This document shows, piece after piece, positions 14,861 to 31,133 of a DNA stretch of 64,000 nt (positions are counted from its first letter, which is position 1; each line of letters begins with the position of its first letter). The stretch lies in assembly GCF_000293805.1 (NCBI RefSeq), contig NZ_AMBZ01000002.1:815001-879000 (forward strand), read 5' to 3'. The DNA comes from Paenibacillus alvei DSM 29. Its GTDB lineage: Bacteria > Bacillota > Bacilli > Paenibacillales > Paenibacillaceae. A model generated the notes under the pieces. That model saw nothing but the letters and a program-made list of their open reading frames with translations. It had not been told where the DNA came from and ran no database searches. The position numbers and the translations under genes were made by a program.

Positions 14861-16066
14861 ATGCATCGGCAAAGACCTGACGTAGTGGGGAGGGATGCAA
14901 TAGAGCCACGAAAAGATCGTATTTCTACTCTTTCTATCGTGCGGGCACTTGCCATACTTGGTGTCATTAGTGTGCACGCTACATCAGAAACCGCAGCAAT
15001 TATGAAGAAATCGAGCGTATTTTACGGATATACCTTCTTTAACATTTTCTTTAAGTATGGAACGCCTACGTTTATTTTGTTAAGCAGCTTTGTTCTTTTT
15101 TATAACTACGGAGGCGATAAGCTGCAGGTCAGTGTGTTGGGAAAGTTTTATAAAAATCGATTTTTCTATGTATGTATTCCGTATGTAATTTGTTCTCTTT
15201 TTTATTTTGCTTTTGTACAGGTAACACTGTACTCGCACTAATCGTAGAGCGAAGCGGCTCCTTTATTCGTAAACAAGCTGTTAACAGGGACAACTTATAC
15301 GCATCTATATTTCGTGTACATCAGCATTCAATTTTATTTGTTGTTTCCATTGCTGCTCTTGCTGTTCCGTTCACGGCGAATCGTGGCTTGGGCTATTCCG
15401 CTTGGACTTGCTTGCAATGGGGGTTTGTCGTATGGAACAAATACGGTGTGCAAATTCCAGCGAAAGGGAGTATTTCGCTGTCATACATAAGCTTTTATTT
15501 TTAGGTGCTTACTTAGGGATACATTTTCACAATATACTGATTCTATTGGACGAGCTTGCTCGGTGCGTTATAAGCTGATGACGGCTGCTATCTGGTTGTC
15601 ATGGCTCGCATTTGCACTGCTGCATGTGCAGATCTGGTATTGGACGCGTTCAACAGGCAAAGAGATGCATTCTCTGATCTACGAACTGCTTTGGAATGGA
15701 CACACGATGCTTTCAGCGATTGTACTTATGCAGCTTGCGTTCTATTTGGAGCGGCGTCTTCCGAATCTGGGGCGGAAGCTTTTGTCTCAGTTAGGTGATT
15801 TGTCATTCGGAATGTATTTGATTCATCCTGTATTTCTCGCCGTATATCGGAAGTTCCCTTGGTATAAGGGGAGTCCGCTGCTGTATCCTTTATTCATTGG
15901 AGGCGGATATCTGTTCGCGCTCGGGATGTCGTGGATATTCGTATATGGGGCAATCCGATATATACCGGGCGCTTCATTTGGACTAGGTGCTTCGCCGCGC
16001 TATTTGATGAACCGCAAAAAGCCAGTCGCAACAATTGATGTGGCTAGACACAGCAATGCATCTTAA
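14861..16066 (+). pseudogene. Broken acyltransferase-3 family membrane protein
   Basis: Pieces of one acyltransferase-3 (OafA-like) protein occur in successive frames. Piece 1 from about 14861 has SIVRALAILGVISVHAT, the family's N-terminal catalytic His motif. In-frame stops TAA 15239 and TAG 15245 interrupt it, then the same frame resumes to about 15405 (KLLTGTTYTHLYFVYIS, QFYLLFPLLLLLF). The frame then drops by one base near 15405 (to QWGFVVWNKYG), near 15500 (to FLGAYLGIHFH) and near 15560 (to RYKLMTAAIWLSWL, ending 16066). Three successive one-base losses plus two stops indicate a pseudogene, or partly assembly error. No convincing start codon with RBS was found. Substrate unknown. Confidence 0.85.
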
Positions 16067-16107
16067 CAATAGTATAAGGTAAAAATTCATACATTGTCAT
16101 CAGACGG

Positions 16108-28822: not shown

Positions 28823-29809
28823 ATGACATGTAAAGATGAAGAGCGAGTTCACCCGCGTATTGTGGTTATGGGCGGCGGCACAGGGCTGTCGGTCATGTTG
28901 CGTGGGTTGAAGGAAAAGCCGCTCGATATTACCGCAATCGTTACCGTGGCGGATGATGGAGGCAGCTCCGGCATATTGCGCAGCGAGCTGCAAATGCCCC
29001 CGCCAGGAGATATACGCAGTGTGCTGACAGCGTTGGCAGATGTGGAGCCCTCGCTGTCAGAGATGTTGAAATACCGCTTCAAGAATGGGTCTGGATTGGC
29101 AGGACATAGTTTGGGTAACTTGATCCTAGCAGCAATGACTGACATTACCGGCGACTTTGTGGCAGGTATACGGGAATTAAGCCGCGTACTTGCGGTTCGA
29201 GGCCGCGTGCTGCCAGCAGCGAATCAGGCAGTTGTCCTTAAGGCAGAGATGGAAGATGGGTCGATTGTATCCGGTGAATCTTCCATTCCTCAAGCGGGGC
29301 AGCGTATTAAACGTGTTTTTTTAGAACCGGAACAGGTGGATGCGTTGCCTGAGGCCGTGGAGGCGCTCCGTCAGGCGGATGCAATTTTGATCGGCCCAGG
29401 CAGTCTTTATACCAGCATTATCCCAACACTGCTCGTACCAAAGCTGGCCCAGGCGGTGTTAGAATCTAATGCGGTGAAAATATTTGTATGTAATGTGATG
29501 ACCCAACCGGGAGAAACGGATAATTATTCGGTCGGTGATCATTTAGAGGCTGTACAGTTGCATGTCGGCAGTCAGCTGTTCGATTATGTGATCGTGAATA
29601 ACGGTGAAATCCCGCCTCAAGTTCAGGATAAATATGCCGAGCAGGGCGCGAAGGCCGTACATTTAGATATGGAAGAAGTGACGAAGCGCGGCTATCAAGT
29701 AATTGCAGATTCTTTAGTGCTGTTCCGCACCTATCTGCGACATGACGCAGATAAGCTTAGTCATCATATTTATCAGCTTGTGGAAAATTGGATGATACGA
29801 AAGAGGTGA
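28823..29809 (+). CDS. yvcK: Gluconeogenesis factor YvcK (CofD-like)
   Basis: A 328-residue CofD-superfamily protein that binds UDP-sugars and is needed for growth on gluconeogenic carbon and for cell-wall homeostasis in Bacillus. N-terminal [45 protein letters not shown] and [13 protein letters not shown] are family hallmarks, as is [18 protein letters not shown]. Length is typical. Its 3' end lies only 6 nt before the canonical whiA ATG, so the two are translationally linked. Confidence 0.95.
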
Positions 29810-29815
29810 GCCGCA

Positions 29816-30747
29816 ATGTCTTTTGCAGCACAGACAAAAAAGAATTAACGATGATCGAATCCGAGTCGTGCTGTGAGAAGGCGGAACTGTCTGCATTAAT
29901 GCGCATGAACGGTTCTGTGCAGCTCTCGTCCAACCGCAAGGTAATATTGGACATTTCTACAGAGAATGCTGCGATCGCCCGCCGCATTTATACACTTGTC
30001 AAAACGTATTTTCAAGTTCATACAGAGCTGCTTGTCCGCAAAAAGATGCGCCTGAAAAAGAACAACGTGTACATTGTACGCATTCCGACGCGTGTGCAGG
30101 AGATTTTACGTGATTTGCACATTGTATCGGAAGGTTTTTTATTCACGGACGGCATAAATGAGCAAATCGTTGAAAATAACTGCTGCAAACGTGCGTATTT
30201 GCGTGGGGCGTTCATGGCAGGTGGATCGGTGAATAATCCAGAGGGATCATCATATCACTTGGAAATATCCTCGATGTACGAGGAGCATTGCCGCGCATTG
30301 GTTGAATTAGCGAATGAGTTCCAACTGAATACCCGATTCATTGAACGTAAAAAAGGCTTTGTCCTGTACATTAAAGAGGGCGAGAAAATCATCGAATTCC
30401 TCAATATCATTGGTGCCCACCAAGCACTGTTCAAGTTTGAGGATGTCCGTATTATGCGGGATATGCGCAACTCAGTGAATCGGATCGTCAATTGCGAAAC
30501 GGCTAACCTGAATAAGACGATTGGTGCAGCCGTTCGTCAAATCGAGAATATTCGTTATCTGGAGAGGCATCTTGGATTAGAGAAACTACCGGATAAGCTA
30601 AGGGAAGTAGCGGAGGTCAGATTGGCACACCCGGATATTAACCTGAAGGAAGTAGGCGAGCTTCTGAGTGGTAAAGTAAGTAAATCTGGTGTCAATCATC
30701 GACTGCGCAAGATAGATGAGATGGCTGAACGATTGCGCAACGGATAG
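29816..30747 (+). CDS. whiA: WhiA DNA-binding regulator; needs a -1 frameshift at codon 8-9
   Basis: WhiA combines a LAGLIDADG-like N-terminal domain with a C-terminal HTH and, in Gram-positives, affects chromosome segregation and division. The start ATG 29816 has a proper RBS (AAGAGGTGAG) and reads MSFAAQTKK, the conserved family N-terminus, but then hits AAT TAA. The rest ([19 protein letters not shown] onward, HTH near [20 protein letters not shown]) lies in the -1 frame. The switch point is the heptamer A AAA AAG at 29836-29842; a -1 slip, or one extra A, joins the parts exactly into a 310-residue WhiA. An alternative start at ATG 29788 inside yvcK stays open in the downstream frame but has no clear RBS and a non-family N-terminus. 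Real frameshift, mutation and homopolymer error cannot be separated from sequence alone. Confidence 0.88.
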
Positions 30748-30786: not shown

Positions 30787-30866
30787 GCTAATATGTGATG
30801 AAATAGAGCAAATTAGCGTAAATTTGAGTAATGTAAACTACATGGAATATAGGGGGTATGATTCGC

Positions 30867-31133
30867 ATGGCTCAACAACCAATTGTCGTACGTTTGAAGA
30901 CTGGACTGCACGCAAGACCTGCAGCCTTGTTCGTTCAAGAAGCGAATAAATATTCTTCGGATATCTTCGTTGAAAAAGAAGATAAGAAAGTTAATGCTAA
31001 GAGCATCATGGGTATTATGAGTCTCGCAATCAGCACCGGCACGTCGATTACCATTACTGCGGATGGCGCGGACGCCGATCAGGCTGTAAGCGCTTTAGTC
31101 GGGCTTGTAAGCAAAGAAGAATTGGACAGCTAA
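30867..31133 (+). CDS. HPr-family phosphocarrier at the crh locus, with His15 and Ser46
   Basis: An 88-residue HPr-fold protein. It sits directly after whiA, where B. subtilis encodes Crh, and its sequence is Crh-like (VRLKTGLHARPAALFVQEAN). However, residue 15 is His (LHARPA), the PEP:PTS phosphorylation site that Crh has lost to Gln, and Ser46 (NAKSIMGIMSL) is the HprK target. It may therefore serve both sugar transport and CcpA signalling. Start ATG 30867 follows AGGGGGT at good spacing; an ATG three codons earlier is too close to that RBS. A terminator follows. HprK at 9545 is the expected kinase. Confidence 0.94.
   Translation: MAQQPIVVRLKTGLHARPAALFVQEANKYSSDIFVEKEDKKVNAKSIMGIMSLAISTGTSITITADGADADQAVSALVGLVSKEELDS

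Follow-up and report, generated by a model that had tools for sequence, protein, structure and literature searches.

In the window, by which we mean the whole 64-kb stretch of DNA analysed here, whiA lies between an upstream open gene that we take, from its sequence and the gene order, to be of the yvcK/mgfK type and a downstream open gene that, judged by its sequence, presumably encodes an HPr/Crh-like protein (Table 1). From the canonical whiA ATG, which is preceded by a good ribosome binding site, the reading frame ends after ten codons, and WhiA continues in the −1 frame. The frame changes at A AAA AAG, a run of six As followed by a G, which is aligned as X XXY YYZ relative to the canonical start. 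An earlier note on this DNA had described these elements, and its coordinates, frames and phase all proved correct.

Table 1. Features at the whiA locus and frame breaks in three other genes of the contig. Positions are those of the window unless a contig is named.
Feature	Position	Strand	Comment
Upstream gene, presumably yvcK/mgfK type	28823..29809	+	Open
Shine-Dalgarno-like AAAGAGGTGA	29800..29809	+	Read in the sequence, upstream of the canonical whiA start; overlaps the 3′ end of the upstream gene; contains GAGG at 29803-29806, with 9 nt from its end to the ATG
GTG start in database gene call P0001	29806..29808	+	313 aa, same contig; bypasses the canonical start
Canonical whiA start and short zero frame	29816..29848	+	ATG 29816-29818, ten codons, then TAA 29846-29848
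A AAA AAG	29836..29842	+	Six-A run then G; frame-change point
WhiA body, −1 frame	29842..30747	+	301 aa and stop; open from GAA 29842-29844 through TAG 30745-30747; WhiA_N, LAGLIDADG_WhiA and HTH_WhiA domains (Pfam)
Internal ATG in the WhiA frame	29851..29853	+	Two bases 3′ of the zero-frame TAA; conceivable re-initiation start
Downstream gene, presumably HPr/Crh-like	30858..31133	+	Open
ybaB/ebfC	contig C6 811365 (L123:10169)		Out of frame early in the gene, at an A run; lies 3.6 kb ahead of the window
dnaB (replicative helicase)	contig C6 608729 (L162:7533)		Out of frame at an A run; outside the window
holB (DNA polymerase III delta′)	contig C6 658057 (L115:16861)		Out of frame at an A run; outside the window

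Since the Pfam domains all fall within the body, and WhiA_N begins at residue 18 of normal WhiA, the first residues of the protein alone are affected by the break. Re-initiation at the internal ATG would presumably yield WhiA lacking its first 12 residues. The heptamer AAAAAAG occurs 26 times on the two strands of the window, where 14.6 are expected, a count reached in 1 of 100 shuffles. A plasmid collection searched with positions 29700-30000 of the window gave no match.

The earlier note had asked for a comparison of the A run across related whiA genes. A whiA match was found in each of the 60 genomes searched, namely the organism's own (G000) and 59 relatives. The 5′ end of the gene was then read in DNA from the 29 of the 59 relatives returned as loci, together with 80 named loci from a second collection; all 109 could be read, and 102 of them were distinct. 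In all 102, whiA is in frame without any shift, so that the combination of frame change and slippery site is not kept in relatives. The number of As before the Glu codon is six in 72, seven in four, three in eight and none in 18, and in the 76 relatives with six or seven As, AAAAAAG in the normal frame closes the Lys-Lys codons. The closest relative, G017, whose WhiA protein is 97% identical, carries a seven-A run (ACAAAAAAAG) and spells the Thr-Lys-Lys-Glu stretch as ACA AAA AAA GAA. Removing one A from this arrangement gives A AAA AAG in X XXY YYZ phase automatically, and the heptamer is therefore not independent evidence for a programmed shift. In a more distant relative, G031, whiA on contig C13 appears to be in three pieces with internal stops, perhaps as a result of poor assembly.

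Database proteins give a similar picture. Among the best 120 of 4,684 WhiA matches over threshold, two have an out-of-frame N-terminus: P0001, the gene call on the window's own contig, and P0002. The other 118 comprise 116 with the canonical start, 11 of which were read from gapped rows of alignment A1, and two whose called start is an in-frame Met further on. One of the matches, P0003 (310 aa, one member sequence, eight contigs), has the canonical N-terminus followed by a body identical to that of the window at 301 of 301 residues. P0002, from a contig of 33,675 bp (source lgn), is broken just as in the window; its body shows no differences to that of P0009 and ten to that of the window, which makes it a separate case from another lineage. 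It could reflect a real mutation hotspot, or a second error-prone data set.

The whiA break was then placed in the context of its contig. ORFs of relatives were aligned with a frame-tolerant aligner to 640 kb of the contig that carries the window (16,113 bases masked), and the same alignment was made on the relatives' genomes as a control. The frame-tolerant aligner was used instead of tblastn, a first pass of which overlooks short pieces such as the nine WhiA residues ahead of the break. Breaks were kept if flank identity was at least 0.70 on the left and at least 0.65 on the right, over at least seven and at least 12 residues, respectively, and several hits at a single position were counted as one. 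With G018 as the reference (264 ORFs, 89,098 aa), 39 raw and 21 kept breaks were obtained in G000, and 12 of the 21 were −1 changes at runs of at least five identical bases, against one +1. For comparison, about 5% (5.2%) of positions drawn at random are close to a run of this length. With G012 as the reference (162 ORFs, 49,878 aa), 40 raw and 15 kept breaks included seven −1 and no +1 changes at runs. Six of these seven are also among the 12; the seventh, at 433501, is doubtful. With G017, whose 47 ORFs (15,847 aa) cover roughly the window itself, there were ten raw and eight kept breaks, with two −1 changes at runs, in whiA and in an acyltransferase-like gene, and one +1. The +1 changes at 91521 and 620692 in G000 lie just before and upstream of likely true starts, respectively, and two of the 12 −1 breaks are weaker than the rest (51143, flank identities 1.0 and 0.65; 201918, 0.8 and 0.7).

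The control genomes behaved differently. G018 gave 26 raw and five kept breaks with G000 as the reference (271 ORFs), none of them at a run in either direction, and 29 raw and ten kept with G012 (173 ORFs), with one −1 and one +1 at runs. In G012, there were 15 raw and five kept breaks with G018 as the reference (172 ORFs), again with none at runs, and 21 raw and seven kept with G000 (160 ORFs), with no −1 and one +1. Thus, −1 changes at runs make up one of 27 kept breaks in these four comparisons. That single case, at 438239 in G018, recurs at the matching G000 position 433501 against the same G012 protein, and so is probably due to an over-long ORF start in G012. With G017 as the reference, no raw breaks appeared in G018, and G012 gave six raw and two kept, none at runs. 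The three comparisons on G017 itself (28 to 48 ORFs) gave four kept breaks altogether and no −1 at a run: seven raw and two kept with G012, with neither direction at runs; one raw and none kept with G018; and four raw and two kept with G000, including one +1 at a run, which is whiA viewed from the broken G000 frame. Breaks at homopolymers that run in one direction, the loss of a base, are therefore in excess in this assembly over the control genomes.

Counts of A/T runs per 100 kb are mixed. Runs of exactly seven number 17.3 in G000, against 25.8, 24.5 and 28.3 in G018, G012 and G017; the corresponding values are 64.0, 62.3, 57.0 and 46.7 for runs of six, and 1.9, 3.3, 5.4 and 1.4 for runs of eight. 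As base composition differs among the genomes, we give these counts no weight. The losses are not universal, since the window contains 19 seven-A matches over its two strands, with overlapping matches counted twice, and a seven-T run at 29316-29322 lies within the open upstream gene.

Named by their G018 reference proteins, the genes hit by the 12 breaks are whiA, dnaB, holB, a ParB-family gene, ybaB/ebfC and darA, along with a yedE-type transporter, thrE, an EamA transporter, a solute-binding protein, a GH38-like protein and a sensor-kinase-like protein. The names dnaB and holB come from NCBIfam applied to the G018 proteins; the last name is our assumption from an HPHFLFN motif, the protein being without an NCBIfam hit. 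A break in yycH, at a run of just four, was left out of the count. Two further genes are mentioned for completeness. One that we take to be MurJ/SpoVB-like was broken at a T run in the earlier tblastn pass and is absent from the kept breaks. The acyltransferase-like gene (window 15001-16100, plus strand) has three −1 steps clustered at about 15411-15538, with in-frame stops; its G017 homologue has 393 aa and is 73% identical over the part that matches best. The family was named by eye, and the gene in the window may be a pseudogene or have several errors close together.

Both dnaB and holB are needed for life, and a cell with truncated DnaB and HolB is not expected to replicate. Up to its break, the truncated DnaB matches P0121 at all 410 residues; P0121 is intact (452 aa, ten member sequences, 15 contigs), and an intact HolB, P0241, 96% identical, is present in a related assembly. 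The longest contigs of P0121 and P0003 are each of 848,902 bp and are presumably one and the same; at the protein level, WhiA and DnaB both have intact counterparts in what would be an independent assembly of this or a very close strain. A mutator strain was considered and is not indicated, as mutS and mutL are both open in this genome. The −1 homopolymer breaks, with replication genes among them, the intact proteins elsewhere and the open mutS and mutL together point to an assembly that has lost bases rather than to the biology of the organism. The ParB-family gene adds to this. A passage of PMC10714963 describes loss of WhiA in B. subtilis as lethal when combined with loss of ParB, or of Noc; we therefore count the broken ParB-family gene beside a broken whiA in favour of an artefact, with the reservation that its break lies at residue 218 of 284 and its product may possibly still be partly working.

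Thus, judged from these comparisons of sequence, the break in whiA is very probably an ordinary artefact, an under-called homopolymer in this assembly. One A would have been dropped from the run that encodes Lys-Lys near the start of the gene, and the base would have gone missing at a sequencing or assembly step rather than in the cell; in the organism itself, whiA is most likely normal and in frame. The earlier note had left two readings side by side, a programmed −1 shift and one A missing from the assembly. The latter is now strongly supported by the breaks along the contig and by the intact protein with an identical body, whereas the former finds no support. P0002 counts against an artefact, as the same broken N-terminus in another lineage could mean a real hotspot, or else a further error-prone data set.

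That case also leads to the alternative which fares best, although we consider it unlikely: that the A run has really contracted in this strain, leaving a recent loss- or reduced-function allele of whiA that is tolerated since WhiA can be dispensable. In addition to P0002, the viability of B. subtilis whiA mutants, as stated in part of PMC10714963, would be consistent with this, as would the in-frame ATG two bases past the stop in TAACGATG, from which, or from the upstream GTG, some WhiA might still be made. Against it, the whiA break belongs to a set of 12 similar breaks in 640 kb, some of which lie in genes essential for replication, with mutS and mutL open and the body of intact P0003 unchanged, and a concurrent break in the ParB-family gene would be expected, by analogy with the B. 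subtilis result described in that passage (PMC10714963), to be harmful or lethal. Within this already low probability, a smaller share, which makes it improbable, goes to the idea that the A run of whiA is a real contingency site in this group of Paenibacillus. The run would then contract again and again, with the window and P0002 as separate instances, and the contraction would limit its own damage by creating A AAA AAG while keeping a nearby in-frame ATG. If that were so, reduced or N-terminally trimmed WhiA would let division or sporulation vary within a population, and WhiA would act as a regulator of division subject to phase variation.

Programmed −1 ribosomal frameshifting at A AAA AAG, by which WhiA would be made from the canonical start in a dnaX-like manner, is far less credible again. 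The heptamer is in the right phase, and A_AAA_AAG is the E. coli dnaX site, described as very shift-prone in E. coli in the relevant parts of PMC3711429 and PMC5009743. However, the phase is the automatic outcome of one lost A, and a shift is required by none of the 102 relatives. The earlier note had doubted a programmed shift on account of missing stimulators, and this doubt was justified. By eye, no upstream Shine-Dalgarno-like stimulator is seen in TCTTTTGCAGCACAGAC, 5′ of the A run, and the 60 nt downstream fold no more stably than shuffled sequences (z = −0.09; 90 of 200 shuffles equally stable). The downstream 90 nt are somewhat more stable than shuffles (z = −1.36), a level reached by 18 of 200.

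The tRNA complement argues in the same direction. High slipperiness would go with a sole tRNA-Lys(UUU) reading AAG. In a scan of 16 tRNA loci, taken from the best 30 of 75 matches, we found a tRNA-Lys(CTT) gene at L220:1501-1576 (locus L220 being G000 contig C16:3439-3511) as well as four tRNA-Lys(TTT) genes in L211-L214. A review notes for Thermus, in the section concerned, that a dedicated tRNA should bind AAG firmly (PMC5009743), and the tRNA-Lys(CUU) would thus be expected to lower the slipperiness of A AAA AAG in this genome. On the grounds of conservation, the lack of clear stimulators and the tRNA complement, we reject programmed frameshifting. Transcriptional slippage on the A run, restoring the frame in part of the mRNA, is no more plausible than that, for while such slippage is known in bacteria and one seven-A dnaX has been argued to use it as well (PMC3711429, in a passage on that gene), the relevant passages deal mostly with homopolymers of at least eight, or with nine As or Ts (PMC3711429, PMC5009743), against which six is short, and the remaining arguments against a real lesion apply equally.

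The breaks seen here resemble the homopolymer length errors of genome assemblies in being single-base losses at runs, nearly all in one direction, in unrelated genes that include those of replication. A study that surveyed 1,106 genomes for frame breaks, in the part that deals with this class, expects breaks to be sequencing errors when they are confined to a single genome and protein comparison confirms them, and gives true indels in pseudogenes as the alternative for part of them (PMC3711429). Two P. alvei drafts were built from 454 reads (PMC3757446), with no link from them to this assembly. With 12 such breaks in 640 kb against one reference genome, the assembly is a poor basis for frameshift or pseudogene claims at homopolymers, and whiA illustrates how the loss of one base from a run of Lys-Lys codons can produce a textbook-looking slippery heptamer.

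The likeness to E. coli dnaX lies in the heptamer and its phase. Unlike in dnaX, the site in whiA is not conserved in the relatives read, no stimulator was clearly found, and the genome has two lysine tRNA types. The site also sits at codons 8-9, and every one of the 102 distinct relatives has the gene in frame. A second comparison is with phase-variable tracts such as that of swrA in Bacillus subtilis, where phase variation occurs by way of a homopolymer tract in a coding gene. The whiA run resembles these in being a coding A:T run for which both in-frame (P0003) and out-of-frame (P0001 and P0002) versions are present in databases; it differs from them in that it is short and in that other runs on the contig show the same loss.
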